The notes under the pieces were generated by a model. That model was not told the origin of the DNA. It did not search any database and saw nothing but the letters and a program-made list of their open reading frames with translations. A program made the position numbers and the translations under genes. Of a stretch of DNA of 64,000 bases, positions 17,921-43,560 are shown in pieces (positions within the stretch are counted from its first letter, which is position 1; each line of letters starts with the position of its first letter). Origin of the DNA: Niveispirillum irakense DSM 11586 (GTDB lineage Bacteria > Pseudomonadota > Alphaproteobacteria > Azospirillales > Azospirillaceae); the NCBI RefSeq assembly GCF_000429645.1, contig NZ_AUCG01000022.1, forward strand, positions 124,001-188,000. The letters run 5' to 3'.

Positions 17921-18000
17921 TGATTCTCTCCCTGGGGCCATCCGGTCTGGTTCCGGACGGCGTGAATGGCGCAAAATTGGGCGCGGCATTTATCTTTTTA

Positions 18001-21429: not shown

Positions 21430-22794
21430 ATGAATTCCCCCGTTTCCGCGAAAGCTACCGAAGGTCAGGCGCCGGTATCGAAGGGCGATCCCGTCGATAC
21501 CGAGTATAGCCGCGGCTACCGCGCCATGCTGCTGGTGCTGATCCTGCTGGTAGCGGCGTTTGCCTATGTCGATAGGGTCATCGTCCAGACCCTGGCGGAG
21601 CCGATCAAGAAGGATCTGGGCCTCAGCGATTTCCAGTTCGGCCTTTTGGGCGGTCTGGCCTTTGCGCTCCTTTATTCCACGCTGGGCCTGCCCATCGCCC
21701 GGCTGGCGGAGCGGCGCGACCGCGTCACCATCATTTCCGTTTCCGTGGCCGTGTTTTCGCTGATGAGCCTGCTATGCGGCATGGCCACCAATATCTGGAC
21801 ATTGTTCCTGTGCCGTATCGGTGTCGGCATCGGTGAGGCGGGGGTGCAGGCGCCCAGCACCTCGCTGATCGGTGACCATTTCCCGCCGCACCGGCGGGGC
21901 TTCGCCCTCACCGTCATGCGACTGGGCGCGCCAGTCGGTTCGCTGTTGGGTTCAGTCGTGGCCGCCTGGCTGGCCCGGGATTACGGCTGGCGCGTCGCCC
22001 TGATGCTGGTCTGCGCGCCTGGATTGATCGTAGCGGTACTGTTCCGGCTATTGTTGCGCGATCCGCCGCGCGGGCATAGCGACCGGCTGGCCGGTGTCAG
22101 TATGCCTAAGGCGGGTACTGCCGCGCCGCGCACTTTGGAAGTGTTCGCGCAGATGTTTCGCCGTCCGGCCTTCCGCCACATGCTAGCGGGGCTGGGGCTG
22201 ACCAGCATGGCTCTGTTCGCCGGTGGCGCCTTCACGGCCCCGTTCTTCATGCGCGTGCATGAATTGTCGCTGACCACCACCGCTTTCTATGTGGCCATCA
22301 TCAGCACAACAGCATCGACCGCGGGCATGAGCCTTGGCGGCTTTGGTATCGACTTCATCGCCCGGCGCGGCAAGCGCTGGTACGCGCTGCTCCCCTTCTG
22401 GGGCATTGCCATCTCTGTTCCACTCTACCTGACCGGCTATGCGGTGGATAATCATGTCGTCGCCGTGACCCTGATCACCATTGCCGGCATCTTCCTGTTT
22501 TTCCATTCCGTGCCCACGCTGGTCGCCTTCCAGAACATGGTCGCCCCTCAGCAACGCACGACGGCGGCCTTCGTCTATTTCTTCGTCTCCACCATGGTCG
22601 GGGTGGGTTTCGGGCCTCCGCTGTTGGGCCTGCTCAGCGATTTCTTTGCTTCCACCGCCGGCGTGACGGATCCGGCCGAAGCCTCGGCGATTGGCATCCG
22701 CAGCGCCCTGCTGACCAGCATCGGCCTCTATGCCTGGGCCGCCCTTCATTATGGGCTCGCCTCCCGCGCCATGGCGGCGGAGGAGCGCCCATGA
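21430..22794 (+). CDS. MFS transporter, Spinster-like
   Basis: A 454-residue major-facilitator permease. Features: FAYVDRVIVQTLAEPIKKDLGLSDFQFGLLGGLAFALLYSTLGLPIARLAERRDR spanning helices 1-2 and loop 2-3, and RIGVGIGEAGVQAPS in helix 4, the pattern of Spinster-type carriers common in sphingomonad catabolic clusters. It starts 56 bases after the TonB receptor gene and would move the substrate across the inner membrane after uptake through the receptor. The next gene begins 37 bases after its stop. Direction and substrate are inferred from the neighbours. Confidence 0.87.
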   Translation: MNSPVSAKATEGQAPVSKGDPVDTEYSRGYRAMLLVLILLVAAFAYVDRVIVQTLAEPIKKDLGLSDFQFGLLGGLAFALLYSTLGLPIARLAERRDRVTIISVSVAVFSLMSLLCGMATNIWTLFLCRIGVGIGEAGVQAPSTSLIGDHFPPHRRGFALTVMRLGAPVGSLLGSVVAAWLARDYGWRVALMLVCAPGLIVAVLFRLLLRDPPRGHSDRLAGVSMPKAGTAAPRTLEVFAQMFRRPAFRHMLAGLGLTSMALFAGGAFTAPFFMRVHELSLTTTAFYVAIISTTASTAGMSLGGFGIDFIARRGKRWYALLPFWGIAISVPLYLTGYAVDNHVVAVTLITIAGIFLFFHSVPTLVAFQNMVAPQQRTTAAFVYFFVSTMVGVGFGPPLLGLLSDFFASTAGVTDPAEASAIGIRSALLTSIGLYAWAALHYGLASRAMAAEERP

Positions 22795-22831
22795 CCATCC
22801 GTTCCGAAATTTTCTGTGCAAGGGGCAGATC

Positions 22832-24292
22832 ATGAAGTTTCCCAACACGCCCAACTTCACCGGCTTTTTCGCCCCGTCAGGTGTGGAGGCGGATGTCCAT
22901 GACCTGCCCGTGCTGGATGGTGCCGTTCCCGCCGACCTGGATGGCAGCTTCTACCGCGTGGCGCCGGACCCGCAATTCCCGCCGCTGGCCGGCGACGATA
23001 TCTGGTTCAACGGCGATGGCATGGTGACGCGGTTCCGGTTCAAGGACGGCAATGTCGCCCTGCAGCAGCGCTGGGTCCGCACCGAGAAATTCACCCGCGA
23101 ACGCGACGCGGGCCGCGCCCTGTTCGGCGCCTACCGCAACCCCCTGACCGATGATGAAAGCGTGCAGGGGGAGGTGCGCGGCACTGCCAACACCAACGTT
23201 GTCGTCCATGCCGGCAAGCTGTTTGCCCTGAAGGAGGACAGCCCGCCCGTCATCATGGACCCGGAAACGCTGGAGACGCTGGACCCGACCTATGATTTCG
23301 GCGGGGCGATGACATCGCAGACCTTCTCCGCCCATCCCAAGATCGACCCGCGCACGGGGGAGATGCTGAGCTTCGGCTATGCCGCCAAGGGCCTGTGCAC
23401 CCGCGACATGGTCTATTACACGATCAACGCGGAAGGGCAGATCACGAACGAGGTTTGGTTCGAGATTCCCTATTACTGCATGATGCACGATTTCGGCTTT
23501 ACCGAGAATTATGTCGTCTTCCATGTGGTGCCCATCGTCGGGTCTTGGGAACGGCTGAAGGCCGGCCTGCCGCATTTCGGTTTCGACCGGGGGCGGCCCG
23601 TGCATCTGGGTGTGTTGCCGCGCAAGGGCGGGGCAGAGGATATCCGCTGGTTCTCCGCCCCCACCTGCTTTGCCAGCCACGTCATGAATGCGCATGAAGA
23701 TGGCACCAAGGTGCATTTCGATGTGCCCATGGCCAAGGGCAACATGTTCCCCTTCTTCCCCGATACCGAGGGGGCACCGTTCCAGCCGCACGAAGCCGCC
23801 GCGACCATGACGCGCTGGACCGTGGATATGAGCGCCAACAGCGACGATATCCAGATGGCGCCGCTGGCCGGTCTGGTGGGGGAGTTCCCCCGCATCGACG
23901 ACCGGTTCGCCGGGGTGAAGAACCGTTATGGCTGGCAGCTTGTGCAGGACATGACCAAGCCCGTGGACCTGCCGGGCGGGCGCAGCGCCTCTGGCCTGAT
24001 GATGAACACACTGGGCCGCATCGACCTGGAAACGGGGGAGACCGATACTTATTGGGTCGGCTCCACCTCCTCCTTCCAGGAACCGGCCTTCATTCCGCGC
24101 CCCGGCTCCACAGCCGAAGGCGACGGTTACATTGTGGTGATCGAGAACCGGCTGGTGGAGCATACCTCCCGCCTGCTGCTGTTCAACGCGCTCAATCTGG
24201 CGGCCGGTCCCATTGCGACCATCGGCCTGCCCTTCCGCATCCGTCAGGGACTGCATGGCAACTGGGCACCGGCCCAGACCAACGCCGCCTGA
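22832..24292 (+). CDS. Lignostilbene-alpha,beta-dioxygenase-like enzyme
   Basis: A 486-residue carotenoid-oxygenase-family dioxygenase that closely resembles the sphingomonad lignostilbene dioxygenases (LsdA/LsdB) along its length: FPNTPNFTGFF, FNGDGMVTRFRF, LFGAYRNPLTDDESVQG, GTANTNVVVHAGKLFALKED, YYCMMHDFGFTENYVVFH, LHGNWA. Iron ligands are His168, His219, His283 and His475. Phe59, Tyr101 and Lys134, the residues I recall as binding the phenolic stilbene in LsdA, are all present at the same numbers. It would cleave a 4-hydroxystilbene into two aromatic aldehydes. The ATG at 22832 follows AGGGGCAG. It precedes an aldehyde dehydrogenase and a LigW-like decarboxylase. Confidence 0.9.
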   Translation: MKFPNTPNFTGFFAPSGVEADVHDLPVLDGAVPADLDGSFYRVAPDPQFPPLAGDDIWFNGDGMVTRFRFKDGNVALQQRWVRTEKFTRERDAGRALFGAYRNPLTDDESVQGEVRGTANTNVVVHAGKLFALKEDSPPVIMDPETLETLDPTYDFGGAMTSQTFSAHPKIDPRTGEMLSFGYAAKGLCTRDMVYYTINAEGQITNEVWFEIPYYCMMHDFGFTENYVVFHVVPIVGSWERLKAGLPHFGFDRGRPVHLGVLPRKGGAEDIRWFSAPTCFASHVMNAHEDGTKVHFDVPMAKGNMFPFFPDTEGAPFQPHEAAATMTRWTVDMSANSDDIQMAPLAGLVGEFPRIDDRFAGVKNRYGWQLVQDMTKPVDLPGGRSASGLMMNTLGRIDLETGETDTYWVGSTSSFQEPAFIPRPGSTAEGDGYIVVIENRLVEHTSRLLLFNALNLAAGPIATIGLPFRIRQGLHGNWAPAQTNAA

Positions 24293-25785: not shown

Positions 25786-26850
25786 ATGACCACGCCCAAG
25801 ACCGGCGGCGCCCAAGGTTATCTGCGCATCGCGACCGAGGAAGCCTTCACCACGCCCGAACTGATCGCGGCCTTCCGGGAAGAACTGGCGGCGCCCGATG
25901 TCGATCCGGGCTTCCTCAGCCTGATCGGCTATTACCTGGACCATCCGGCGGAACGGCCGCGCTTTGTTGCCAACGCCCTGATGGATCTGGGCGAACAGCG
26001 CATCGCCCATATGGATGAACGCGGCATTGACCGCCAGATTCTGGGCTTGACGGCGCCCGGCACCAACGTCATCCGCAATCCTGACCGGGCCACCATGGTG
26101 GCGGAAACTGCCAATGACCGGCTGGCCGAAGCCATCGCCAAATACCCCACCCGTTTCAGTGGCATGGCCGCCTGCGCGCCCCAGAATCCCAAGGCAGCGG
26201 CGCGGGAAATCGAACGCGCCATCGGCAAGCTGGGCCTGTCCGGCGTACTGATCAACAGCCACATCCTGGGCGAATATCTGGATAATCCCAAGTTCAACGA
26301 GGTGCTGGAAGCCATCGAGGCGATGGATGTCCCCCTCTATATCCACCCCAATACCCCGCCGGCCTCCATGATCGGCCCCCTGCTGGAAGCGGGCCTGGAT
26401 GGCGCCATCTTCGGCTTCGGCGTGGAAACCGGCATGCATGCGCTGCGCATGATCACATCCGGCGCCCTGGACCGTTTCCCCAAATTGCAGATCGTGATCG
26501 GCCATATGGGCGAGGCCCTGCCCTTCTGGCTTTATCGCCTGGATTTCATGCATGGCGCTGGCGTGCGCACCGGCCGGTATGAAAGCATGAAGGCGTTGAA
26601 AAAGGGCAAAGTCTCGACATATCTGCGCGAACATTTCCACATCACCAATTCCGGCGTCGCCTGGGAAGAGGCGATCAAGTTCACGCAGAAGGTGATGGGC
26701 GAAGATCGTGTCCTCTACGCCATGGACTATCCCTATCAGTGCCCGATAGCGGAAGTGGAAGCACTGGACGCAATGGACATGCCCCTGGAAGTAAAACGCA
26801 AATTCTTCCAGACCAACGCGGAGAGACTGTTCAAGATCAAGTCAGCATAA
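25786..26850 (+). CDS. Amidohydrolase-family decarboxylase, LigW (5-carboxyvanillate decarboxylase)-like
   Basis: A 354-residue amidohydrolase-2 (ACMSD-type) protein. It resembles LigW closely: KTGGAQGYLRIATEEAF at the N-terminus, LINSHILGEYLDN, PLYIHPNTPPASMI, AIFGFGVETGMHALRMIT, GHMGEALPFWLYRLDFMH, and AMDYPYQ. Likely metal and catalytic residues are Glu18/Glu19, His187, His240 and Asp314. LigW removes the 5-carboxyl of 5-carboxyvanillate to give vanillate; gamma-resorcylate decarboxylase is the nearest alternative. GGGAGG stands before the ATG at 25786. As the third enzyme after dioxygenase and aldehyde dehydrogenase, it could decarboxylate the aromatic acid they make. A terminator follows. 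Confidence 0.85.
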   Translation: MTTPKTGGAQGYLRIATEEAFTTPELIAAFREELAAPDVDPGFLSLIGYYLDHPAERPRFVANALMDLGEQRIAHMDERGIDRQILGLTAPGTNVIRNPDRATMVAETANDRLAEAIAKYPTRFSGMAACAPQNPKAAAREIERAIGKLGLSGVLINSHILGEYLDNPKFNEVLEAIEAMDVPLYIHPNTPPASMIGPLLEAGLDGAIFGFGVETGMHALRMITSGALDRFPKLQIVIGHMGEALPFWLYRLDFMHGAGVRTGRYESMKALKKGKVSTYLREHFHITNSGVAWEEAIKFTQKVMGEDRVLYAMDYPYQCPIAEVEALDAMDMPLEVKRKFFQTNAERLFKIKSA

Positions 26851-26929
26851 AACCCTTTATGGCCGCTCCGTTTGCACTGACCACTACCGCCCCGTTCTGA
26901 CGGCGGCTGTTGATCCGTAATGGGCATAT

Positions 26930-26964
26930 CCCGTCCTGGTAATAAAAGCGATTACCAGGACGGG
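26930..26964. terminator. Bidirectional terminator hairpin
   Basis: CCCGTCCTGGTAAT (26930-26943) pairs perfectly with ATTACCAGGACGGG (26951-26964) around a seven-base loop. It lies between the convergent LigW-like gene (ends 26850) and the GMC oxidoreductase gene (ends 27000). Confidence 0.75.
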
Positions 26965-26999
26965 TTCTGAAAACCTTAAAATATCAATTTAATCAGCGA

Positions 27000-28700
27000 C
27001 TAGATCGAGCCTTGCTTCAACAGGGAAACCGCATGGTGACAGGCACGGGCCGTCAGCGCCATGTAGGTCAGTGACGGATTTTGACAGGCGGATGAACTCA
27101 TCTGCGCCCCGTCGGTGACGAACAGGTTCGGCACGTCATGGGCACGGCTGAAGCGGTCGAGAACAGATGTCTTCGGGTCCCATCCCATACGGGCACCGCC
27201 CATCTCGTGGATCGAAGAGCCACCCAGGCCCGGCTCCGTGATCGAAATGACAACCTGCCCGCCCGCCGCCGTCAACATTGCTTTTGCTTCAGCGGCAGCA
27301 TCGGCCAGGGCTGTCCGCTCATTCTCTCCATGTTGGAAGGCAATCTGAAGAACCGGCATGCCATGCTTATCCTTCCGGTTTGGATCCAGTGTCAGCCGGT
27401 TGGATGCAAGAGGCAGGCTTTCAGCATAGGTCACCAGGACCATCCGCCAGGCCTGTGGCGTCCTTAACCGGGCCTTGAAGTCTGCGCCCACGCCCGGCAT
27501 GCGCTTGCCACCGGTCCAGCCGCCCTGAAAGGCACCGCCCTGGTAGGAATAGCCCCGTGTAAACCGGGGCGCATCGTTCCGGTCAAGGTTTCGGAAGCGC
27601 GGAATAACGATGCCCGTCGGGCGGTTTCCATAGGTCGTGTGCTGGTCGAAGCCCGGTATGATGGCAACCGCAGACACCGCGTTGGCATGGTCCATGATGT
27701 GGGTGCCCAGCACACCGGAACTGTTGGCCAGACCGTTCGGGAAGGCTGCCGACCGGGACCGCAGAAGCAGATGCGTGCTGTTGAACGCCCCGGCATTGAG
27801 AAAGATCAGGCGGGCGGTGTGACGGCGGCGGGCTCCGGTATTGGCATCAACGACAAGCACTCCCGTGGCCTTGCCCGTAGCCGGATCATGTTCCACCGCC
27901 TCCACAATGGTATCGGTGACCAGTGTCAGCCGGCCCGTGGCCTGGGCCGCCGGCAGGGTGGAACTCTGCGTGGAGAAATAGGCCCCGTAGGAACAACCGC
28001 GTGCGCAGATATTGCGGTTCTGACACGTGGCACGGCCTTCCTTTTCCTGGGTCAGATTGGCCGTGCGCCCGATGATCAGGCGCCGGTCGGGAAAGTTGCC
28101 CTCGATAGCGGATTTAACATGTTGCTCAACGATATTCAGGGCCATAGGGGGCTGGAACCGGCCATCGGGAAGTGCAGCGATGCATTCAACGGAACCTGAA
28201 ACACCAATAAATTCTTCAACATGATCATACCAGGGCGCCAGATCCGCATAGCGGATCGGCCAATCGGTCCCGTGACCATCGCGTTTGTTGGCCTCGAAAT
28301 CATAGTCCGACCAGCGATAGGTCTGGCGCCCCCATGTCAGGGAGCGACCGCCCAACTGGTAGCTGCGCAGCCAGAGGAACGCTTCGCTGCCCGCCGCCGT
28401 CGAATAAGGATTGTCGATGTCGTTGATGAAATGCCCCTGCGTCCATTCATCAAAGGCCCGGTTCCGGCGCTGGACCGGATATTTCTCGTCATACAGGGCC
28501 GCGTCACCAGCCCCGTGGAAAGGAAGCTCCCAAGGCGGCGTGGTTTCGGTAGCATAATCCTGACCATGGGTGATCTGGCGTCCCCGCTCAATCAGCAGGA
28601 CCTTGAGGCCGGCTTCCGTCAGTTCCTTCGCCGCCCAGCCGCCGGTGATCCCGGACCCGACGACGATGGCGTCAAATTCATAATTGCTCATCGTCTTCAT
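27000..28700 (-). CDS. GMC oxidoreductase, glucoside 3-dehydrogenase-like large subunit
   Basis: A 566-residue FAD enzyme of the glucose-methanol-choline family. The FAD motif is VVGSGITGGWAAKEL (residues 13-27), and the catalytic pair is His498 (SSIHEMGG) and Asn541 (CQNPSL). QLGGRSLTWGRQTYRW and CQNRNICARGCSYGA resemble sugar-oxidising members such as bacterial glucoside 3-dehydrogenase, which pair with a gluconate-2-dehydrogenase-subunit-3 protein; exactly such a gene lies just upstream. ATG 28700 overlaps that gene's stop (ATGA); ATG 28691 is an alternative. It probably oxidises the sugar C3 hydroxyl to a 3-keto group, the step needed before C-glycoside cleavage by the deglycosidase in this operon. 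It lacks its own signal and may be exported with its partner. Confidence 0.85.
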   Translation of the reverse strand: MKTMSNYEFDAIVVGSGITGGWAAKELTEAGLKVLLIERGRQITHGQDYATETTPPWELPFHGAGDAALYDEKYPVQRRNRAFDEWTQGHFINDIDNPYSTAAGSEAFLWLRSYQLGGRSLTWGRQTYRWSDYDFEANKRDGHGTDWPIRYADLAPWYDHVEEFIGVSGSVECIAALPDGRFQPPMALNIVEQHVKSAIEGNFPDRRLIIGRTANLTQEKEGRATCQNRNICARGCSYGAYFSTQSSTLPAAQATGRLTLVTDTIVEAVEHDPATGKATGVLVVDANTGARRRHTARLIFLNAGAFNSTHLLLRSRSAAFPNGLANSSGVLGTHIMDHANAVSAVAIIPGFDQHTTYGNRPTGIVIPRFRNLDRNDAPRFTRGYSYQGGAFQGGWTGGKRMPGVGADFKARLRTPQAWRMVLVTYAESLPLASNRLTLDPNRKDKHGMPVLQIAFQHGENERTALADAAAEAKAMLTAAGGQVVISITEPGLGGSSIHEMGGARMGWDPKTSVLDRFSRAHDVPNLFVTDGAQMSSSACQNPSLTYMALTARACHHAVSLLKQGSI

Positions 28701-29248
28701 CCAAAGGTTAAGGCTGTCCAATCGCTTGACCAGGCGCGGTTATCACCAGATACCGGCACATCAGGATCCCAGTGCCCCGGCACCAGCTCGTAGCGCAATT
28801 CCTGTGTCGCCCCGGCTTCAGACATGTAATAGCCAAGCAGGATCAATGATTTGATCCTTGTCCATGGCGTAGGTGGCGATGCAGGGCCGGCAGCGAAGGC
28901 GGCCTGGTCGACAATAGCGACCGCCCTTGCGATATCCTTTTCTCCCGTCTGCCGCAGGTGGGCGGCCAGCCAGTCCAGATGGTCCCGCCCTTTCGGTCCC
29001 GGCAGCGACGGATCGCGTGAGCCTTCCAGCCCATGTTCCAACGCCATGACCAGGAACCGGTGCACGCCCACGTCGCTGGCACCCGGTGTATCGGTGCGCG
29101 GGATCACTGCATCGACGACATCAACAAGCAGCCTTGATTGGCTTGGCGTTATGAGTTCTGCCGCCTGGGCCACAGGCAGGTTCGACAAGGCACCCCAGGC
29201 CAGCGCCGCCCCCATCAGGCGACGGCGATCCACAAATGTCGGTTCCAT
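28697..29248 (-). CDS. Gluconate 2-dehydrogenase subunit 3 family protein with Tat-type signal
   Basis: A 183-residue small subunit of membrane or periplasmic GMC dehydrogenases. The N-terminus DRRRLMGAALAWGALSNLP followed by AQAA is a twin-arginine-type signal; the mature part includes LVDVVDAVIPRTDTPGASDVGVHRF and ILLGYYMSEAGATQELRYELVPG, the subunit-3 pattern. Such proteins chaperone the FAD subunit and carry it through the Tat system. The stop overlaps the GMC start. It lies 12 bases after the MFS gene. This pairing supports periplasmic oxidation of the glycoside. Confidence 0.87.
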   Translation of the reverse strand: MEPTFVDRRRLMGAALAWGALSNLPVAQAAELITPSQSRLLVDVVDAVIPRTDTPGASDVGVHRFLVMALEHGLEGSRDPSLPGPKGRDHLDWLAAHLRQTGEKDIARAVAIVDQAAFAAGPASPPTPWTRIKSLILLGYYMSEAGATQELRYELVPGHWDPDVPVSGDNRAWSSDWTALTFG

Positions 29249-29260
29249 TCCCCGTCTCCA

Positions 29261-30484
29261 TCAATGCTGAGCATCCGCGACCGGCGCGGGCCGGTACTTG
29301 AGAAGGCAAAGAAATGTGACGACGGCGCCAAGCAGGGCGACCACCCCCAACAGGGTGAAAGCCCCCTGCATATCGCCGGCAAAATCGCGCGCAGCCGTTA
29401 CAAATAACGGGCTGGTGAACTGCCCCATGAAGAAGCAGGCAGACCAGATGCCCATACCGCGTCCACGGTGCTCTGCTGGTATCTTGGATACCGCCCACAA
29501 GACCAGGGCCGGAATGGCGATGCCCGCGCCTAGCTGTTGAACGAACGCAAAACCTGTCATGATCTTCTGGTCAGCCGCCAGGCCGATGCCAACCAGACCG
29601 CCCCCCAGCAGCAGCAGATAGATGCATACCATCTGCGGGCCTGTGAACCGGCCGGACAGCCACTGGAACAGGGCCGCACCCAGAAAGACGCCTATGCTGG
29701 CGACCGAGATCAGCAATCCGATGGTTTGCGGCGAGGAAACGCCAATTTCAGTGAAGGCGAGCCCGACCTGCACGATATAGACATAATACAGCGTTGCGGA
29801 AAACAGTGTCACCCCGCTGGTCAGAAGGACAGGCCCCCAGGGGAACTGCTGTGCTTCCTCCCGCCGTGCCTCCTTCTGTTCAGCAATGGCGGGTTCGTAA
29901 ATATAGAACAGCATGGCCAGGAAAATCGGGAAGGCAACAGCATAGATCAGGAATGAGGCGTTCCAGGAAACGGCCGTGATATATCCAGACAGCGCCACAA
30001 CGGAGGTGCCAAAGATCGGTCCCACCAGCCCCTGAACCGTCAGCCAGGTTCGGCGCTGATTATGAGCGAAATAGTCGCCGATCAGCGTATTTGTCACCGT
30101 CAATATGCCCGCTTCCGCGATCCCGAGGGCAAGCCGCGAGGCGATGATCAGTGTCAAATCCTGAAGGAAATAGGGAGCAACGCCGACGATACCGTATAGC
30201 AATGTCGCCGCAAGCAGCAGCCGGCGACGACCGTACCGGTCAATAGCCCAGCCCATCAGGGGGGAAGTCAGCGCAATCATCAGGCCCGGCGCCGTGACCA
30301 GAAGCGGTACCAGCGTTGCCGCCCCCGGCACATCAGCAAATTGGGCCATGATGCGCGGCACTGCCGGCGCCAAGGCCACAATGGCCAGGATCGGCAAGAA
30401 CCCCGCCAGCACAACCAGGATTCCCTGACCTATGCCCGCCTGCTGTGGCATCGGGCCACGTTGGTGTAAACTGGCACACGCCAT
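29261..30484 (-). CDS. MFS transporter
   Basis: A 407-residue twelve-helix permease with MGWAIDRYGRRRLLLAATLLYG (loop 2-3 motif), IASRLALGIAEAGILTVTNTLIGDYF in helices 4-5, and a C-terminal half ending LLKYRPAP. The start at ATG 30484 is preferred because GGGGAGGAG lies five bases upstream, so the 39 residues that could be added upstream are probably not translated. It sits between the monooxygenase and the dehydrogenase subunit genes of the C-glycoside operon; import of the (3-keto) glycoside into the cytoplasm, where the deglycosidase would act, is the natural guess. Confidence 0.85.
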   Translation of the reverse strand: MACASLHQRGPMPQQAGIGQGILVVLAGFLPILAIVALAPAVPRIMAQFADVPGAATLVPLLVTAPGLMIALTSPLMGWAIDRYGRRRLLLAATLLYGIVGVAPYFLQDLTLIIASRLALGIAEAGILTVTNTLIGDYFAHNQRRTWLTVQGLVGPIFGTSVVALSGYITAVSWNASFLIYAVAFPIFLAMLFYIYEPAIAEQKEARREEAQQFPWGPVLLTSGVTLFSATLYYVYIVQVGLAFTEIGVSSPQTIGLLISVASIGVFLGAALFQWLSGRFTGPQMVCIYLLLLGGGLVGIGLAADQKIMTGFAFVQQLGAGIAIPALVLWAVSKIPAEHRGRGMGIWSACFFMGQFTSPLFVTAARDFAGDMQGAFTLLGVVALLGAVVTFLCLLKYRPAPVADAQH

Positions 30485-30622
30485 GTCAACTCCTCCCCAA
30501 TTTGTTATTGTCGCTTTCCGGGCTGGAACGGCCCGGCCCGTCAGGCAATGATCGCCGCGATCCGCGTATCGCCCATCAAGGCGGGCCGGAATTGGTCGCA
30601 TCAGGGGGCCAACCCTGGCCCC

Positions 30623-31864
30623 TCAGGTGCCCACGCTCTCCTGGCGGAGGGGGGATGCAGGCCGGAACGGCGGGGAATCCTCTATTTCAGCCAGTTGGGA
30701 CAGGATGTGGCCGGGCATCGCGTCGCCAACGAATTTCTGGAGCATCGGCGTATTGTCGAAAACCCAATCCCTCAAAGGACGCAAAACCTTCGGCATGTGA
30801 TGGAACATCCGCCCGGTATGGAAGGCCCCCTGGCTGACCTGGGCCGTATGGGGCTTGCGCCGGTCCTCGAACCGCTGAAGCGCACCACGAACGGCATCCG
30901 CTTCCGATAGAGAAACTTCGTTCAGTTCCCGGGCGAGGAAATATCCATCCTCAATGGACATGCCCGCGCCATAGGCGGCGTAGGGCGATGTGGGATGTGC
31001 CGCATCGCCGACAAGGGTCGTGCGCCCCTTGGACCATTGCTTCAGCGGGGGACGGTCGCGGATTTCCCAGCGCTGGAGATGCTTCACCGGCGTTGCGTCG
31101 ATCAGTTCCCTTACTTTCTGCGTGAAGCCTGCAGCGCGTTCGCGGCTGAACGCCAGCAGATCGGCAGGGGGCGGCTGGTTGGGGTCACATGCTTCCAGCA
31201 CCCACCATTCATATCCCCATTTCCCTTCATGCCGGATAGGGGTGTAGCTGACCTGGGTAGTTCTGTTATGGGCAATGACCCCTTTTCCTTCCGGTGCCGC
31301 GTCCAGAAAAAGGTAGCCACCGACAAGATGCAGACGCTGGTGACGGATCGGCTCCTCTCCCCACAGAGACTTGCGGACAAAAGAATTGATGCCATCCGCG
31401 CCGACAAGAACGTCAGCCACAAACTCCGGCTTGTTGGCGAATTTCAGCCTGACATGTCTGCCGTCATCGTCGATGCCGGTCAGATTATGACCAAGACGCA
31501 GGACGCCGGGAGGCAGCGCATCAAGCATCCTTTTATAAAGGCCCCATCGCAGCAGGCCGATGAACCCACCGCCATATTCCTTCACTACCTCATCCGGCAG
31601 GATGACTTCCGCCCGTCTTTTACCGTCATAGCGTTCGAAGAATGTTTGGCAAGGCGCGCCGAGATCATCGGTATCAACACCAATAATCTTGAGTATTTTT
31701 TGCGGTGGTGGCCACAGGTTCAAGATATTGCCCGCGGCCTTCACCTCTTCCGCGCGCTCGAACAATACAACTTGAAATCCAAGCCTGATCGCGGCAAGCG
31801 CGGTGGCCATACCACCCGGCCCGGCGCCAACGATAGCGATGGTTCCCTTGATGCCCTTGCTCAT
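30623..31864 (-). CDS. FAD-dependent monooxygenase (group A, 3-hydroxybenzoate/salicylate hydroxylase-like)
   Basis: A 413-residue single-component flavoprotein hydroxylase: IAIVGAGPGGMATALAAIRLGFQV (residues 9-32), the NAD(P)H/FAD motif VLVGADGINSFVRKSLWG, and GRTTLVGDAAHPTSPYAAYGAGMSIEDGYFLA. It would add an OH group to a phenolic aglycone or its breakdown product. ATG 31864 is preceded by AAAGGAAAG. A 138-base gap separates it from the MFS gene and 155 bases from the TonB receptor gene; all lie on the minus strand. Whether it acts on the aglycone before or after ring cleavage cannot be said. Confidence 0.85.
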   Translation of the reverse strand: MSKGIKGTIAIVGAGPGGMATALAAIRLGFQVVLFERAEEVKAAGNILNLWPPPQKILKIIGVDTDDLGAPCQTFFERYDGKRRAEVILPDEVVKEYGGGFIGLLRWGLYKRMLDALPPGVLRLGHNLTGIDDDGRHVRLKFANKPEFVADVLVGADGINSFVRKSLWGEEPIRHQRLHLVGGYLFLDAAPEGKGVIAHNRTTQVSYTPIRHEGKWGYEWWVLEACDPNQPPPADLLAFSRERAAGFTQKVRELIDATPVKHLQRWEIRDRPPLKQWSKGRTTLVGDAAHPTSPYAAYGAGMSIEDGYFLARELNEVSLSEADAVRGALQRFEDRRKPHTAQVSQGAFHTGRMFHHMPKVLRPLRDWVFDNTPMLQKFVGDAMPGHILSQLAEIEDSPPFRPASPLRQESVGT

Positions 31865-32019
31865 CAAGCTTTCCTTTATTTTCGATGGTTTTGGTAGGGG
31901 CGAAATACATTGTCCAGGGGCGGCAACCAGCGCCGGCCCGCCCGGCCTGGCCGCTCATCGGCCCCACCTTCCTGTCATCATTCCTGGAAAGGACGCGCCG
32001 GGCGAGCCCGGCGCCCCCA

Positions 32020-34380
32020 TCAGAAGGTAAGGCCCAACTGGACACCGACCGTCCGCACGGAATTGAACCCGAACTGCTGAACGTAGGAGGCCAGGCCCGC
32101 AATGCTGTCGCCAGACTCCAGGTCAATATAATTGGGATAGACCTCGTTCGTGCAGTTCTTGCAGAACAGGGCGACACGCCAATTATCACCCTTCACGCCG
32201 ATATTGGCGCCCAGCACATCGATGGCGCCAACATGCGCCCCCGGTGCCTGACTGATGAGGAAATTGATCGAGGACCGGTGATACCAGTCGGCACCGATGA
32301 AACCCGTCAGATCATTGCTGACAGCAGTTTCGTAAGAAACATTGGTTGTGGTGGTGAATTTAGGCGAGGACGGGCTACGCAGCCCGCCAGCATTGAAGCT
32401 CTCATTCGTGGCGCAGCTTGGCGTCGTCTGCCCCGGATAGCACTGGGCACCGGGGAAATCATCGAACTTGGAATTCAGGATGGTGGTGGAGTTGCCGATT
32501 GTCAGGCCGTGCAGCGGTTTGGCATTGATGGACAGTTCAATGCCCTTGCTGGTCAGGCTGGCGCCATTGGCAACAACGAAGGTACGGACCACCGGATCGA
32601 AGGACTGGGTCTGGTAATTGCTGAATTTGGTGTGGAAGGCGCTGACATTCAGCATCAGCCGGCGATCAAGCAGGGTGCTTTTCACACCCGCCTCAAAACT
32701 CTTGGAGGTTTCCGGCCGGATTGACAGATCAAAATCAGGCGACGTGCCGACATCGTTGAAACCGGGCCCTTTGTAACCGCGGGCATAGGTGCCATATGCC
32801 ATCACGTTCGGCGTGAATTCATACTGCAAACCGGCCTTATAGCTGAAATCGGTATTATCCAGGCTCTGGTTATAGAGTTGTTTGGATGCGAACGGCGCGA
32901 AGTAGTTACGGAGCTGGTTTTGGCCCAGATCGATTGAAAGCTCGTCGCGGGTGACCCGGGCGCCGGCAATCAGCTTTAATTGATCGGTCACCGCATAGGT
33001 AAGCTGCCCAAAGGCGGCATAGCTGTCGGTGGACTGGACGATGGTTTTGTCGATGCCCAGGAAAAAATCGTTGGACACACTGCAATTTGGCGGCCCGCCC
33101 GGGGTAACCATTGCGCCAACGCAGAACGGAAATCCGGCCAGCATTGCCGGCGGGAAGAAATTATCGCCACCGATCTCCAGGAACGTGTCGATCTTGGAAT
33201 GGAAATAGTAAAGCCCGGCCTGCCCGGTCAGCTTTTCATCCTGCGGCAGAACAAGGCGCAGTTCATTGGAGAACTGATCGTAGCGGGTATTGTTATGGTT
33301 CAGGTTAGCAGCGTTCTGGCCTGTCGTATCGCCATCGATCTGCTGGTCCATCTTGAAGAAACGCCAGGCGGCGATGTTGTTGATGGACCAGCCATTGGCA
33401 AATTCATAGCCCAGGGACGCCTGTGCCCCGCCATTACGCAGGTTGCGATAGGCAGGCGCATCGGCGGCAGCCACCAAATTGTCTTTCCCCGGCACCACCC
33501 CGTCAGCCGCCAGTGGCCCCGTATTCACGCTGCCAGCAGCCATGGACCGGAAAGTACCATCATAGAAACCGGAAATACCGGCCGATTTATTATAATCACC
33601 CTGCAGACGCAGGCTGAAACCATTGTCCGGCATGTAATCATACTTGGCGCGGATACCAGACTGGCTGAGATCATCCTCATATTTTGCGCCCTTGCCACCC
33701 ACATGCCGGGTCAGCGCGTCCTGGCTGGAATGGAAAGCGGCGATGCGCAACGCAGAATCCGACGTTACCGGCACGTTCAGTGCCGCACGCGCGATCAGCC
33801 CCTTGCCATTGCTGCCCGGACGCGACCGCGACACGCCCTCCAGATCAACCGAACCCGACGTTTCACCCAGAACCGGCATGGCCGTGCCGATATTCACCAG
33901 GCCCGCCGATGCGTTCTTGCCGAACAGCAAACCCTGGGGCCCGTTCAGCACTTCCACCTGGGCGATATCGTAGAAGACCGGTGGCGCCGCCAGGGACCGG
34001 CCGATATTCACTTCGTCAATCGCCTGCGCGACGCTGGGGTCGATGGTCCCGGCAAAGGCCAGGGTGCCGATGCCACGAACCGTGAAGTTGTTTTCCTTGC
34101 CCAGTTGCAAGCTGGGCGCGGCCAGCGTGATCTGAGTCTGGTCGTTCAGGCCACGCTCGATCAGGCTGTCGGCGCTCAACGCCGTGACGCTGACGGGCAC
34201 AGTCTGCAACCGTTCGGGCCGGCGCTGCGCGGTGACCACGATCTCATCCAAAGTATCGCCGGATGCCAGGGAAGGCGCCGTGCCGCCTGCTGACTGGGCC
34301 AGGGCGCTGGTCGCACTGCCAAGGGTAAATGCCAGGATAGAGGCGGATTGGAGCAACCAAGATTTCTTTAAGCTGATCAT
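32020..34380 (-). CDS. TonB-dependent receptor (C-glycoside operon)
   Basis: A 786-residue outer-membrane receptor: signal peptide to about residue 29 (ATSALAQ), TonB-box region LDEIVVTAQRRPERLQ, plug with FTVRGIGT, VEVLNGPQGLLFGKNASAGLVNI, and a barrel ending SVRTVGVQLGLTF. The start at ATG 34380 is chosen because GGGAGGT lies nine bases upstream. This plug type (RRPERLQ...GPQGLLFGKN) is typical for receptors of secondary metabolites and polyphenols in sphingomonads. It lies 67 bases downstream of the deglycosidase beta-subunit gene and before the monooxygenase, so uptake of plant C-glycosides is the inferred job. Confidence 0.9.
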   Translation of the reverse strand: MISLKKSWLLQSASILAFTLGSATSALAQSAGGTAPSLASGDTLDEIVVTAQRRPERLQTVPVSVTALSADSLIERGLNDQTQITLAAPSLQLGKENNFTVRGIGTLAFAGTIDPSVAQAIDEVNIGRSLAAPPVFYDIAQVEVLNGPQGLLFGKNASAGLVNIGTAMPVLGETSGSVDLEGVSRSRPGSNGKGLIARAALNVPVTSDSALRIAAFHSSQDALTRHVGGKGAKYEDDLSQSGIRAKYDYMPDNGFSLRLQGDYNKSAGISGFYDGTFRSMAAGSVNTGPLAADGVVPGKDNLVAAADAPAYRNLRNGGAQASLGYEFANGWSINNIAAWRFFKMDQQIDGDTTGQNAANLNHNNTRYDQFSNELRLVLPQDEKLTGQAGLYYFHSKIDTFLEIGGDNFFPPAMLAGFPFCVGAMVTPGGPPNCSVSNDFFLGIDKTIVQSTDSYAAFGQLTYAVTDQLKLIAGARVTRDELSIDLGQNQLRNYFAPFASKQLYNQSLDNTDFSYKAGLQYEFTPNVMAYGTYARGYKGPGFNDVGTSPDFDLSIRPETSKSFEAGVKSTLLDRRLMLNVSAFHTKFSNYQTQSFDPVVRTFVVANGASLTSKGIELSINAKPLHGLTIGNSTTILNSKFDDFPGAQCYPGQTTPSCATNESFNAGGLRSPSSPKFTTTTNVSYETAVSNDLTGFIGADWYHRSSINFLISQAPGAHVGAIDVLGANIGVKGDNWRVALFCKNCTNEVYPNYIDLESGDSIAGLASYVQQFGFNSVRTVGVQLGLTF

Positions 34381-34447
34381 TCTGATCTTACCTCCCATTT
34401 CGTTATTATTTCTGACGATGCGTTTTCGCCGTCAGTTAGTGACTTGA

Positions 34448-34852
34448 TCAGGGAACGATGATCGTCGCGTGCCTTTCACTGCGGACGAAAACAGGCTGGA
34501 ACTGCGGCGGAAAATAGGGGTGGCGGAAGCGGATGCTGCTGGCCACATGGTGGACGCCGGGCGCCAAACCACCAGATTTGGGCACGATCACCGTGAAGAA
34601 GGTGCCCACGTAAAGCCGGGCCTCGGTTTCCTCTGCCATTTCCGCGTGCGAATATTCGTGCCCGCCTACCCGGATGCGGTTTTGTTCCGCCGGGTAGCTG
34701 ATCCCATCTACGACCAGATCGACCCCTTCGATCAGGCTGAGGCGAGAGCTGCGATAGTTGGGCTGACGGATGCGCAGCTCGAACCCTGTGCGGGCGCCCG
34801 CAGGACCGACATTCTGGAAACCGCTGCTCTGGATATGGCTGCGCTCAAGCAT
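34448..34852 (-). CDS. C-glycoside deglycosidase beta subunit (DUF6379-like)
   Basis: A 134-residue protein matching the small beta-sandwich subunit of C-glycoside deglycosidases (CarC/DgpC type, DUF6379): IQSSGFQNV, then GFELRIRQPNYRSSRLSLIEGVDLVVDG, GHEYSHAEMAEETEARLYVG, FTVIVPKSGGLAPGVHHV, and IRFRHPYFPP. It pairs with the alpha subunit encoded just upstream. The start at ATG 34852 overlaps the alpha stop by eight bases, and GGAGAAGG lies upstream; this coupling favours equal subunit synthesis. The enzyme cleaves the bond between an aglycone carbon and a 3-keto sugar. No signal peptide, so the complex is probably cytoplasmic. Confidence 0.82.
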   Translation of the reverse strand: MLERSHIQSSGFQNVGPAGARTGFELRIRQPNYRSSRLSLIEGVDLVVDGISYPAEQNRIRVGGHEYSHAEMAEETEARLYVGTFFTVIVPKSGGLAPGVHHVASSIRFRHPYFPPQFQPVFVRSERHATIIVP

Positions 34853-35762
34853 GAGCCTTCTCCCCATGCGTGGCGTCATACTCAGCCTCCAGCTTGCGGA
34901 TCAGCGCATGCTGACGGCGCACCTGCTCAATCGCGACCCATGGGTCGCGGGCCCCCTCATATTCGCTGGAGAGATAACCGTCATAACCCAGCTTCTTCAG
35001 CATGGGGACGATACGCTCCCAGGGAATATGGTGGTCGTGCAGATGCTCGTCGATATGGTGAAATTTGGCCTGAATGAACGGCACATATTTAATCACATCA
35101 ACCAGATGCTCAACCGGCACCTTGATGCCGTTAAGAAAGCTGAGCGCTCCCTTGCGGATCTCCTCCGTTTCCCCGCCGCCCCATTTATTGAGCGGACGGT
35201 CCTGGAAGATGCCGGTATCAATCAGCAGGCCGAAATTCTTCGTGCCGGTCCGTTCAATGAAGGCGATATAGGCGTCGGTGACCGGATGGCGGATCGGCGT
35301 CGGCGCATGTATCTCCGGCATGATCACGATGCCAAGCTGATGCGCAAGATCAAGATTCCGCTCAATCGCCGGTTCCCAAATCGGATCGGGCGTCAGCTCG
35401 TCATCAATCACCCCGAACTTGGGTCGCATGAATTTGAAACCCAGCCGGTGGGCTAACCGCAGATCACATGCGATCTGGGCTACACCTTCCTGCACGCTCA
35501 TGTTGCGGCCGATGGTCAGACGGGTATCGACCCAGGCGGCAAAATTTGTCGGTTCCAGTTGATAACGGTCAAGCAGAGCGAACCACGTATCAAGCCACGA
35601 AGCCGTCGGCTCCGGATATGTCGGGATGCTGGTCTCACCCAGTATCTCTATACCGGTGGCGCCCGCACTCGCGACATGGTCGAACCCGTCCTCCAGTGTC
35701 ATGACCGTGCCGAGATCGTCGGTGTAGCTATATAGCGACACCCCATATTTGAACGCATTCAA
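34845..35762 (-). CDS. C-glycoside deglycosidase alpha subunit (xylose-isomerase-like TIM barrel)
   Basis: A 305-residue sugar phosphate isomerase/epimerase-fold protein. Likely metal ligands: Glu150 and His152 (MPEIHAPT), Asp182 (LLIDTGIF), His235/His236 (KFHHIDEH) and Glu267 (LSSEYEG). This layout, with the adjacent DUF6379-like gene, matches the CarB/DgpB alpha subunits that, with Mn, split 3-keto C-glycosides to the aglycone and an unsaturated keto sugar. The start at TTG 35762 is chosen because GGGAGAGGG lies seven bases upstream; a GTG at 35807 lies inside the operator-like repeats. Without the beta gene I would have called it a general TIM-barrel isomerase. It is the first gene of the long minus-strand operon. 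Confidence 0.82.
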   Translation of the reverse strand: MNAFKYGVSLYSYTDDLGTVMTLEDGFDHVASAGATGIEILGETSIPTYPEPTASWLDTWFALLDRYQLEPTNFAAWVDTRLTIGRNMSVQEGVAQIACDLRLAHRLGFKFMRPKFGVIDDELTPDPIWEPAIERNLDLAHQLGIVIMPEIHAPTPIRHPVTDAYIAFIERTGTKNFGLLIDTGIFQDRPLNKWGGGETEEIRKGALSFLNGIKVPVEHLVDVIKYVPFIQAKFHHIDEHLHDHHIPWERIVPMLKKLGYDGYLSSEYEGARDPWVAIEQVRRQHALIRKLEAEYDATHGEKAHA

Positions 35763-35796
35763 AGCGTTACCCTCTCCCAAGCTGATATGGCGCACC

Positions 35797-35833
35797 TTAT
35801 TAAGCACAGCTTATTTTGTTCTTTATTAAGCAC
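35797..35833. promoter_or_regulatory. Direct repeats in the divergent TetR/deglycosidase promoter region
   Basis: TTATTAAGCAC occurs at 35797-35807 and 35823-35833, 26 bases apart; the first is part of the dyad TAAGCACAGCTTA (35800-35812). The region is AT-rich, directly upstream of the deglycosidase alpha start, and lies between that gene and the divergent tetR gene, so it is a good candidate operator. The remaining bases to 36103 hold no gene that I recognise. Confidence 0.45.
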
Positions 35834-36103
35834 TGATTATTCACAATGCAACAAGTTTGTTGGCCTGAGCGCAACGAAGCTGCGCACCAAGCGGGAGAAA
35901 TGGATGAATGCGTTGAGAAAGAGGATGCCCCACAGGAACTGGGGGTCTGTCGCGAGCCGCGACGGAAGCTGATAAAGCCCTTCACCCTCACCCCAAACTC
36001 ACGTAAAGGGTAGAACCTGTAAGGATCAAACTGATCGTGAATCCATTCATTGCAAGCCGGATGCGCCCTGCAAACCGGGCTCACGGGCAACACCATTAAG
36101 ATA

Positions 36104-36730
36104 ATGACCAGCCAGAAGAAAAACCGAGAACGGCGCGGCCGGCCTTCCCACAGAGATGATCTTCGAGGTCAACTGATTGCCGCGGCCTGCACCTTCGTCG
36201 CGCGTGAGGGACACGAGGGGTTGTCCATGCGCAGGTTAGCCGAGGAAGTGGGAGTGAGTTCGGCTGCGCCGTATCATCATTTCCCAGATCGCCGGGCGCT
36301 GCTCATCGAAGTAGCGCTCGAAGGCTATCGGACCATGTTCGCCGGTACGGAGCAGGAGAGCGTCTCTCCCACCGAACCACGGGCGCGCCTGTTCCAGACA
36401 TTGCGGCATTTCATCCGGTTCGCTGTCCAGAACCCGCACATGTTCACGCTCATGTACGAGAGTGAGCTTGTCCGTCCGAATCTCGCGCCGGAAATACAGG
36501 AAGCGCATGAATCCGGCTTTCAGAGGCTGGATGCTGAAGTGGGCGCACCGCTTTCAGGCTTATCGGACCGGGATCGCAGCATTCGTATCTCCACGATGTG
36601 GAGCGCTACCTTCGGCTTTGCGCTTCAGTCCAACAGGGCAATGATCCGCACCCCCAGCCATGAGCCGGCCCCGGACGAACTCGCCGATGAAATCGTCCGG
36701 CTGGCCATAAAGCTGATTGATCTCAAGTAG
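36104..36730 (+). CDS. TetR-family transcriptional regulator
   Basis: A 208-residue regulator with an N-terminal TetR helix-turn-helix: LIAAACTFVAREGHEGLSMRRLAEEVGVSSAAPYHHFPDRRALLIEVALEGY (residues about 26-77). The rest is the all-helical ligand domain with FAVQNPHMFTLMYESELVRPN. The start at ATG 36104 puts the usual 20-25 residues before the HTH. It is divergent from the C-glycoside operon and therefore its likely local repressor, with a flavonoid or phenolic glycoside as candidate inducer. It ends 72 bases before the convergent ABC-F gene. Confidence 0.88.
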   Translation: MTSQKKNRERRGRPSHRDDLRGQLIAAACTFVAREGHEGLSMRRLAEEVGVSSAAPYHHFPDRRALLIEVALEGYRTMFAGTEQESVSPTEPRARLFQTLRHFIRFAVQNPHMFTLMYESELVRPNLAPEIQEAHESGFQRLDAEVGAPLSGLSDRDRSIRISTMWSATFGFALQSNRAMIRTPSHEPAPDELADEIVRLAIKLIDLK

Positions 36731-36802
36731 GGGGCGGGAGGAGCCTCCCCGCCCCCAGGCATCTGGTCGGTCGATATTGTCGATATTCAGGAACCAACCT
36801 GC

Positions 36803-38425
36803 TCAGCTATGCAGGCCGGGCGCTTCCTGCCCGGTCCGCGCGACATATTCAGTATAGCCACCGCCATATTGATGGATGCCGTCCGGCGTCAGCTCCAGCA
36901 CCCGGTTGGACAGTGCTGCCAGGAAATGCCGGTCGTGCGAGACGAACAGCATGGTTCCCTCATAAGCGGCCAGTGCAGTGATCAGCATCTGCTTGGTGTC
37001 GAGATCGAGATGGTTTGTCGGTTCGTCCAGCACCAGGAAATTCGGTGGATTGTACAGCATGATCGCCATGACCAGCCGCGCCTTCTCCCCACCAGACAGC
37101 ACCCGGCAGCGCTTTTCCACATCATCGCCGGAGAAGCCGAAACAGCCGGCCAGCGCCCGCAGCGACCCCTGGCCCGCCTGCGGGAAGGCGCTCTCCAACG
37201 CCTCGAACACGGTCTGCTCCCCATCCAGCAATTCCATCGCGTGCTGGGAGAAATAGCCCATCTTCACGCTGGCACCGACATTGACGGTTCCGGTGTCGGG
37301 CTGGTCCACGCCCGCGATCAGCTTCAGCAGGGTTGATTTACCCGCACCATTGACGCCCATGACGCACCAGCGTTCCTTGCGGCGGATGGTGAAATCGAAG
37401 TCCTGATAGATGGACCGGCTGCCATAACCCTTATGGACGTTGCGCAAAACCGCGACATCCTCGCCTGAGCGCGGGGCCGGCGGGAAATCGAACGTCACGA
37501 TCTGACGGCGTCTCGGCGGCTCAACGCGTTCGATCTTGTCCAGTTTCTTGACCCGGCTTTGCACCTGACTGGCGTGCGAAGCGCGCGCCTTGAAGCGCTC
37601 GATAAACTTGATCTCCTTGGCCAGCATGGCCTGCTGGCGTTCAAACTGCGCCTGCTGCTGTTTTTCGTTCAACGCCCGCTGCTGCTCATAGAACGCATAA
37701 TCACCGGAATAGCTGGTCAGCGATCCGCCATCAATCTCGATGATCTTGTTGACGATCCGGTTCATGAATTCCCGGTCGTGGGAGGTCATCAGCAGGGCCC
37801 CCTCATAGCCCTTCAGAAAGCCTTCCAGCCAGATCAGGCTCTCGATATCCAGATGGTTGCTGGGCTCATCCAGCAGCATGGCGTCGGGCTTCATCAGCAG
37901 GATACGGCCCAGCGCCACACGCATCTTCCAGCCGCCGGACAGGGCACCGACATCCTTGTCCATCATCTCCTGGCTGAAGCTGAGGCCGGCCAGCACTTCC
38001 CGCGCCCGCCCCTCCAACTCATAGCCGCCTAACTCGTCAAAACGGGCCTGTACCTCGCCATAACGCTCGATGTTTTCGTCCATCCGATCAGCCTGATCGG
38101 GATCGGCCATGGCGTGTTCCAGGCTCGCCAGTTCCTTGGCGATCTCGCTGACCGGCCCGGCCCCGTCCATCACTTCCTGAACCGCGCTGCGGCCGGACAT
38201 CTCCCCGACATCCTGATTGAAATAACCGATGGAGACCTGCTTCTCCACCGACACCTGACCCGTATCCGGCTGTTCTTCGCCCGTGATCATGCGGAACAAG
38301 GTGGTCTTACCGGCGCCATTGGGGCCAACAAGCCCCACCTTCTCCCCCCGGTTCAGCGCTGCTGAGGATTCCAGAAAGAGAATCCGATGACCATTATGTT
38401 TGCTGATATTTTCAAGGCGGATCAT
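36803..38425 (-). CDS. ABC-F family ATPase (ribosome-associated)
   Basis: A 540-residue protein with two ABC ATPase domains and no membrane part: Walker A GPNGAGKTT (residues 34-42) and GVNGAGKST, signature/Walker B pairs LSGGWKMRVALGRILLMKP with DEPSNHLD, and LSGGEKARLVMAIML with DEPTNHLD. The linker contains KFIERFKARASHASQVQSR, the typical ABC-F interdomain helix. These proteins act on the ribosome, restoring stalled translation or protecting it. ATG 38425 gives the family start at MIRLENISKHNG; longer in-frame extension shows no similarity. It is a housekeeping gene, not linked to the accessory operons. Confidence 0.92.
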   Translation of the reverse strand: MIRLENISKHNGHRILFLESSAALNRGEKVGLVGPNGAGKTTLFRMITGEEQPDTGQVSVEKQVSIGYFNQDVGEMSGRSAVQEVMDGAGPVSEIAKELASLEHAMADPDQADRMDENIERYGEVQARFDELGGYELEGRAREVLAGLSFSQEMMDKDVGALSGGWKMRVALGRILLMKPDAMLLDEPSNHLDIESLIWLEGFLKGYEGALLMTSHDREFMNRIVNKIIEIDGGSLTSYSGDYAFYEQQRALNEKQQQAQFERQQAMLAKEIKFIERFKARASHASQVQSRVKKLDKIERVEPPRRRQIVTFDFPPAPRSGEDVAVLRNVHKGYGSRSIYQDFDFTIRRKERWCVMGVNGAGKSTLLKLIAGVDQPDTGTVNVGASVKMGYFSQHAMELLDGEQTVFEALESAFPQAGQGSLRALAGCFGFSGDDVEKRCRVLSGGEKARLVMAIMLYNPPNFLVLDEPTNHLDLDTKQMLITALAAYEGTMLFVSHDRHFLAALSNRVLELTPDGIHQYGGGYTEYVARTGQEAPGLHS

Positions 38426-43352: not shown

Positions 43353-43434
43353 CAGCCCAACCGACGGGGCCTGTCTTCCCCCGTCCTCTCTGTTGCAAAA
43401 ATCAAACATACGCACGTCACCCTTTCTCGGTGGC

Positions 43435-43478: not shown

Positions 43479-43560
43479 TGCCGGAAAACAGGGCATTTCA
43501 GCAGCAACAAAAAACAGAGCCGCCTTTGCCGCGGCCTGGGGTCGTGTGGGAGGAGAAGTT

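Follow-up and report, generated by a model that had tools for sequence, protein, structure and literature searches.

A minus-strand gene run at positions 27000-35762 of a 64,000-nucleotide stretch of the Niveispirillum irakense DSM 11586 genome (contig NZ_AUCG01000022.1, positions 124,001 to 188,000; hereafter, the window) is, judging from its gene content, probably an operon for the catabolism of aryl-C-glycosides, flanked by a divergent gene for a TetR-family regulator and representing a respiration-linked, periplasmic variant of a known pathway. C-glycosides are resistant to ordinary hydrolases; as far as is known, their breakdown begins with an O2-consuming oxidase in soil actinobacteria or with an NAD enzyme in gut bacteria. 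In transcription order, the run encodes the alpha and beta subunits of a predicted C-glycoside deglycosidase (CGD), a TonB-dependent receptor, a class A FAD monooxygenase, a major facilitator superfamily (MFS) transporter, a Gluconate_2-dh3-type subunit (hereafter, subunit 3) and a GMC dehydrogenase. We further consider it somewhat more plausible than the contrary that Alphaproteobacteria hold a third, independent solution to the first step, namely a dedicated GMC clade, exported by the twin-arginine (Tat) route and carrying a [3Fe-4S] cluster, that would oxidize C-glycosides in the periplasm, feed the electrons into respiration, leave the activated 3-keto glycoside for import, and be passed on along with the CGD genes both in Azospirillaceae, the window's family, and in Sphingomonadaceae.

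The alpha subunit (34845-35762, minus strand; 305 aa, type 1, TIM barrel) and the beta subunit (34448-34852, minus strand; 134 aa, ATG start) are encoded by genes that overlap by eight bases. The alpha subunit matches the AP_endonuc_2 profile (1.3e-16) and is 56% identical to the Microbacterium testaceum CGD (8qrz), which was the closest chain in a sequence search (E = 5.9e-108) ahead of DfgA (1.1e-59). An AlphaFold model of it, built with 29 sequences (pLDDT 88), was used for a structure-based search; 8qrz ranked first in Foldseek (TM 0.89 by query length), and the first 16 fold matches were all CGD chains. The beta subunit matches the CGDB family, or DUF6379 (PF19906, 1.9e-33), as well as the N-terminal part of 8qrz (1.5e-18), DfgB (9.8e-12) and DgpB (6.5e-9). 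CGDB matches are found at the operon and at one further place, on another contig, in this genome, and in none of 14 control genomes. The AP_endonuc_2 profile describes a broad fold family, and epimerases come next in the fold search, as would be expected if the pair were an ordinary sugar isomerase or epimerase with an unrelated small neighbour. Epimerases appear only at 4.8e-13 or weaker, however, behind the CGD chains that lead the ranking, and the small neighbour is a CGDB protein; we therefore rejected this reading, which is extremely improbable. The prediction, made in a first-pass annotation of this DNA, that 34448-35762 encodes both subunits of a CGD, including a DUF6379-like beta subunit, is thus confirmed by profile, sequence and fold.

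The residues expected of the active site are also largely present. In AgCGD2, His149 is catalytic and is helped by Glu307, and the metal is bound by Glu147, Asp179, His269, Lys271 and Glu305 (PMC8563793). When these residues are mapped by motif, and not by direct alignment, the catalytic pair corresponds to H152 and E269, which are invariant in 29 of 29 aligned type-1 sequences, and four of the five metal ligands are kept in type-1 alpha subunits as E150, D182, K233 and E267. Counting against the assignment, the place of the metal-binding His269 is occupied by Gln231 in all 29 aligned type-1 alpha subunits. The solved M. testaceum CGD carries the same Gln within the motif QAKFH, so this residue does not exclude membership. 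His235, four residues beyond Gln231, is present in 28 of the 29 sequences, and QAKFH is found at the first such motif in 45 of 48 frames scoring above 300 bits (some loci being counted twice). Residues 231-235 read QAKFH in type 1 versus HAKFY in several type-2 frames, and the metal-binding His appears to have shifted by four positions on the strand between CGD types.

We next consider the candidate enzyme for the preceding oxidation. The GMC gene (27000-28721, minus strand) was identified by Pfam profile and by alignment to the alpha subunit of FAD glucose dehydrogenase (GDH; 6a2u, 8hdd) and the large subunit of fructose dehydrogenase (FDH; 7w2j), its best full-length relatives (7e-40), with which it aligns over nearly its full length. 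Its cysteines C233-x5-C239-x3-C243 align with those of both relatives, and H505 and N548 stand at the catalytic places, matching the C-terminal His/Asn region of GDH and FDH. GDH alpha and the FDH large subunit work with a cytochrome c subunit, and the C-x5-C-x3-C cysteines bind their [3Fe-4S] cluster; the motif is present in 40 of 40 high-scoring members of the GMC clade. Subunit 3 (28697-29248, minus strand; PF13618, 1e-16) has a twin-arginine signal (DRRRLMG) followed by a hydrophobic stretch. By eye, RR and a hydrophobic stretch after it are present in 15 of 17 frames, the other two being one with KR and one that is mis-started; the structure model of subunit 3 is poor (pLDDT 49). The pair is thus a flavoprotein with an adjacent Tat-signal partner, as in GlycDH-type enzymes, and the Tat signal on the partner together with the cluster cysteines points to a periplasmic dehydrogenase whose electrons would leave through the cluster. 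An identity with the pyranose oxidase or C-glycoside oxidase type (POx/CGOx; CarA, PurA, PsG3Ox) was rejected on three grounds: chains named as pyranose oxidases match a single C-terminal segment of the GMC (best 5.4e-9), the NCBIfam pyranose_ox model scores 52.9 bits against a cut-off of 544.9, and the protein carries the cysteine motif. No Gfo/Idh/MocA oxidoreductase of the kind used for a DgpA-type first step was found among the eight operon proteins, and the operon holds no candidate sugar oxidase besides the GMC. In a tree of 49 GMC proteins, made by a quick method and with long outer branches, the 41 high-scoring rows form one side of a branch (SH-aLRT 97), and the window copy branches apart from a second copy in the same genome.

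The GMC clade shows a strong association with CGD genes in the genomes compared. CGDB is rare, being found in 3 of 385 genomes of a sample of the class, two of them in the window's genus. Among 82 genomes of the window's family, CGDB occurs in 11 and the GMC (1e-120 or better) in 11, and these are the identical 11 genomes, comprising six of the 11 in the window's genus and five of the seven in another genus. Among 347 Sphingomonadaceae genomes, of which 20 carry CGDB, the best three GMC candidates per genome were scored, and 53 genomes have a match at 1e-120. Seventeen of these reach at least 815 bits and all are CGDB-positive, while the remaining 36 score at most 747 bits (46-59% identity) and none has CGDB. 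With a cut of 800 bits, which was chosen after this score gap had been seen, the clade GMC is present in 17 of the 20 Sphingomonadaceae genomes with CGDB and in none of the 327 without it; the clade is one of 64-73% identity. The genes also tend to lie close together, although the Fisher values for this proximity ignore phylogeny: 16 of 18 clade copies in Sphingomonadaceae are within 15.1 kb of CGDB (of the other two, one is far away on the same contig and one is on another contig), and in the window's family 9 of 12 copies are within 12.6 kb (the others lying 21 kb away, 35 kb away and on a separate contig). In 21 proteobacterial genomes chosen for type-1 CGD, a set derived from 22 loci with one strain given once, the clade was detected in 19, the misses being Duganella and Ideonella. 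As five of these 21 genomes are also in the sample of the window's family and one is in the Sphingomonadaceae sample, the counts of the three samples are not independent.

Of 76 plasmid records with a GMC match, nine have a match of at least 60% identity, and on seven of these nine a CGD alpha match is present as well; the alpha match on NZ_CP117882 is only 29% identical. A plasmid record of N. capsulatum lacks CGDB, and another strain of this species has CGD; in N. resinovorum, the GMC and a partial CGD match are on separate records. On the Sphingobium sp. TomTYG65 plasmid AP027331.1, a GMC pair (72% identity) lies approximately 14 kb from CGDB, with a CGD alpha match on the plasmid and a gene annotated as chalcone synthase nearby.

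Several observations weigh against a dedicated role of this clade and against the pathway proposed from it. Three CGDB-positive sphingomonads have no GMC match at 1e-120. No CxxCH frame of at least 60 aa was found at positions 26000-37000. The type-1 CGD operons of four close relatives end with a choline-dehydrogenase-like GMC, which is 25% identical to the window GMC over part of its length and is without the cysteine motif. This family is found in 11 of 65 clustered neighbourhoods, those four included, and is a rival for the first step. Five CGDB-positive relatives within the genus do not have the clade GMC next to their type-1 CGD; four of them carry it on the contig of the other CGD, at a distance of 10.6-35 kb, and the fifth has it on a separate contig. 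The monooxygenase occurs apart from CGD in one genome with no CGD seen within 20 kb (G006) and in one sphingomonad (G808), and CGD islands also hold enzymes for O-glycosides. Separately, at two further loci, CGD stands beside GMC proteins of 287-302 bits that are without the cysteine motif and are a possible alternative first enzyme.

These neighbourhoods could mean that the GMC/subunit-3 pair dehydrogenates a sugar or an alcohol for some other purpose in flavonoid-glycoside islands, C3 oxidation being left to another enzyme, for example the choline-dehydrogenase-like GMC. Such a division of labour would agree with the presence of that GMC in 11 CGD neighbourhoods, type-1 operons of close relatives among them, and with the 36 CGDB-negative sphingomonad genomes that carry GMC relatives at 46-59% identity. 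It is nonetheless unlikely, given that the clade of 64-73% identity tracks CGDB, is separated by the gap from 815 to 747 bits and occupies one side of the tree branch, that the window operon offers no other candidate sugar oxidase, and that only one of the 11 neighbourhoods, viewed in flanks of approximately 20 kb, also shows the clade. The two GMCs may serve separate functions; alternatively, the choline-dehydrogenase-like GMC may be a further 3-oxidizing enzyme, or perhaps one that acts on the aglycone side. We retain the GMC/subunit-3 pair as the likely partner that oxidizes C3 for the CGD, as first suggested for this operon, because the clade was seen only with CGDB in the two sampled families and the two share an operon in Sphingomonas yantingensis and Novosphingobium hassiacum.

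To place the operon among its relatives, 27 type-1 loci from 25 genomes were tabulated, including the window and leaving out actinobacterial loci and repeat fetches of the same place. The full set of eight genes is present in the window, S. yantingensis and N. hassiacum, the order in the latter two differing from that in the window, and a further locus has six of the eight, its contig beginning just before the CGD gene. In the flanks of the 27 loci, the GMC pair was found at 5, the monooxygenase (at least 400 bits) at 7 and the TonB receptor (at least 250 bits) at 15, while the beta subunit is present at all 27. MFS genes related to that of the window recur in CGD islands. Clusters of recurrent families consist partly of antisense frames, and families were named only where the cluster's example had a Pfam match or the cluster included window proteins. 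Taken together, the operon is real and recurrent. Among the 82 genomes of the window's family, four have the monooxygenase, and each of these carries CGDB; among the 347 Sphingomonadaceae genomes it occurs in three, of which two are CGDB-positive and the third (G808) has an internal stop and no CGDB match. It appears less strictly tied to CGD, and aglycone hydroxylation is a guess at its function. Among 16 actinobacterial loci, some of them short, subunit 3 was found in none, and a GMC gene was found in the flank of 10, always without the cysteine motif, as expected of the CGOx type. The enzyme for the first step thus seems to have been swapped between lineages while the CGD was kept. Actinobacterial type-1 CGD frames reach approximately 430 aa or beyond, enough to accommodate a beta-alpha fusion like that of 8qrz, and several of these loci have three or more CGD-like frames.

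The same genome contains a second CGD island on another contig. It includes a second GMC/subunit-3 pair, the GMC being 68% identical to that of the window, and a CGD that is nearer to the enzyme of Deinococcus aerius (8qvc, 5.3e-118); its alpha protein is 30% identical to that of the window operon. Beside the second CGD is a TIM-barrel gene matching 8ro4, titled "2-hydroxy-3-keto-glucal hydratase" (3.3e-180), together with a Gfo/Idh-family gene (identified by clustering), a GH3-family gene and a luciferase-like monooxygenase gene. The operon had been described as complete; as the hydratase and the Gfo/Idh-family gene for the sugar product are located on this other contig and neither is among the operon proteins, we rejected that description. 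In N. hassiacum, by comparison, a Gfo/Idh gene and a hydratase-family gene are inside the operon. CGD islands of relatives encode GH106 rhamnosidase, GH1, GH3, esterase, VanA-type oxygenase and 3-keto-disaccharide hydrolase families, a content that fits plant glycosides, for example flavonoid glycosides, as the natural food.

This content bears on the question of whether the operon is mainly for O-glycosides, with the GMC making 3-keto O-glucosides, the CGD eliminating them and C-glycosides being a minor substrate or none. GH1, GH3, GH106 and 3-keto-disaccharide hydrolase families in the islands would suit such a function, PuCGE also eliminates 3-keto-phlorizin, and GlycDH was first known for O-glucosides (PMC10628242). 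The same islands, however, already have ordinary hydrolases for O-glucosides. Moreover, the beta subunit accompanies every one of the tabulated type-1 loci, and PuCGE without its beta subunit loses all activity on 3-keto-nothofagin while a slight activity on 3-keto-phlorizin is left. The hydratase is on 311 plasmid records (1e-40), as against nine with the GMC at 60% identity or above. We judge a main role in O-glycoside use to be improbable, and consider aryl-C-glycosides the more likely substrates.

From gene identities, motifs, co-occurrence and shared islands, we infer each catalytic and transport step of the following route. The TonB-dependent receptor (32020-34398, minus strand; PF00593/PF07715) would take the glycoside across the outer membrane into the periplasm, where the Tat-exported GMC/subunit-3 pair would oxidize the sugar C3-OH and pass electrons via FAD and the [3Fe-4S] cluster to the respiratory chain. 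Import of the 3-keto glycoside across the inner membrane is presumed for the MFS protein (29261-30601, minus strand; PF07690, 6.3e-41), after which the cytoplasmic CGD would release the aglycone through metal-assisted beta-elimination. As a presumed hydroxylase, the FAD monooxygenase (30623-31867, minus strand; PF01494) might make the first attack on the aglycone; it had been called a phenol hydroxylase and is a class A FAD monooxygenase whose nearest solved relative is 6-hydroxynicotinate 3-monooxygenase. The 2-hydroxy-3-keto-glucal would be hydrated and reduced to glucose by the hydratase and Gfo/Idh enzyme beside the second CGD. If correct, this route would explain how sphingomonads and azospirilla use C-glycosides through a respiration-linked dehydrogenase, presumably without a peroxide product, would offer a genomic marker of such pathways, and would add a new pair of enzymes for producing 3-keto glycosides. 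Given the co-occurrence, the question is directly testable in strains such as Sphingomonas yantingensis DSM 27244 and Novosphingobium hassiacum DSM 14552.

All operon genes are open frames on the minus strand, with TetR divergent on the plus strand. Following the overlap of the CGD genes, successive spacings are 49, 152, 21, 12 and 5 bases. For some genes, the first start codon probably precedes the true one. CGD alpha starts with a TTG codon after the stretch GGGAGAGGG. The likely start of the MFS gene is an in-frame ATG at 30484 behind GGGGAGGAG, which would widen its distance from the monooxygenase from 21 to 138 bases, and for the GMC gene the ATG at 28691, five bases after subunit 3, is the more likely start. 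The TetR gene (36050-36730, plus strand; PF00440, PF13305) likely starts at the ATG at 36104. The region between CGD alpha and TetR (35763-36103), read directly from the sequence, is the presumed operator and promoter; a promoter scan of it found no consensus sigma-70 promoter (one site versus a shuffle mean of 4.1).

Elsewhere in the window are two carotenoid/lignostilbene-type cleavage oxygenases of the RPE65 family (16475-17989, minus strand; 22730-24292, plus strand). Downstream of the second, which converges with the CGD operon, lie an aldehyde dehydrogenase gene and an Amidohydro_2 gene; the CGD island on pNL2 of N. aromaticivorans contains a related oxygenase. A further region (43315-51903, plus strand), with a TonB receptor (43315-46401), GH3 (48005-50503) and GH30 (50485-51903), is perhaps a separate locus for sugar use.

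That C3 oxidation is followed by CGD cleavage is established (PMC8563793, PMC12724307, PMC10646112), and a four-step pathway and the requirement for a beta subunit are described in PMC13273386. The M. testaceum CGD (8qrz, 8un2) is the closest solved structure to both subunits and shares the motifs QAKFH, EIH, DTG and SEYEG; its subunits form one 435-aa chain, whereas here they are encoded by two overlapping genes. DgpABC and DfgAB of gut bacteria likewise have a two-subunit CGD, DfgA being the next closest solved chain after 8qrz. The first step in DgpABC is carried out by the NAD-dependent DgpA (PMC12724307), unlike in the window operon, which holds no Gfo/Idh protein. In PurABC of Paenarthrobacter and CarABC of Microbacterium, an FAD enzyme oxidizes C3 and a CGD pair cleaves, and PurABC homologs are also reported in Pseudomonadota (PMC12724307). 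PurA and CarA are O2-using oxidases, in contrast to the window GMC with its [3Fe-4S] cysteines and Tat subunit. GDH alpha and the FDH large subunit share with this GMC the full-length alignment, the aligned cysteines and the His/Asn region, but no CxxCH frame was found at the window operon and the substrates differ.

A close functional parallel is GlycDH of Rhizobium sp. GIN611 (AEX01166.1), to which the GMC is likened by description and not by sequence. Made with a Tat protein, it oxidizes puerarin, nothofagin, orientin, vitexin and isovitexin at C3 in vitro, with ferricyanide at least 100-fold better than the earlier-used O2 (PMC10628242). The operon of its A. tumefaciens homolog encodes the O-glycoside eliminase AtOGE, the putative hydratase AtHYD and a Gfo enzyme (PMC10628242). 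This system resembles ours in its flavin dehydrogenase with a Tat protein, in C-glucoside oxidation and in a hydratase and Gfo enzyme for the sugar, but its eliminase acts on O-glucosides and has no sequence similarity to CGD. When a GlycDH ortholog was sought on plasmids, an Agrobacterium stretch had a hydratase match and Gfo genes and no GMC, and a Rhizobium plasmid stretch with a GMC (35% identity) had no annotated Tat partner. In a literature search covering titles, abstract openings and selected passages, which gives weak evidence of absence, no paper was found that joins a GMC/subunit-3 dehydrogenase and CGD in one operon. The novelty claimed for this combination is narrower than first stated, as GlycDH with its Tat protein already oxidizes C-glucosides at C3 in vitro. 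What appears new is a predicted variant of C-glycoside catabolism whose GMC is unlike both the known C-glycoside oxidases and the NAD enzyme.

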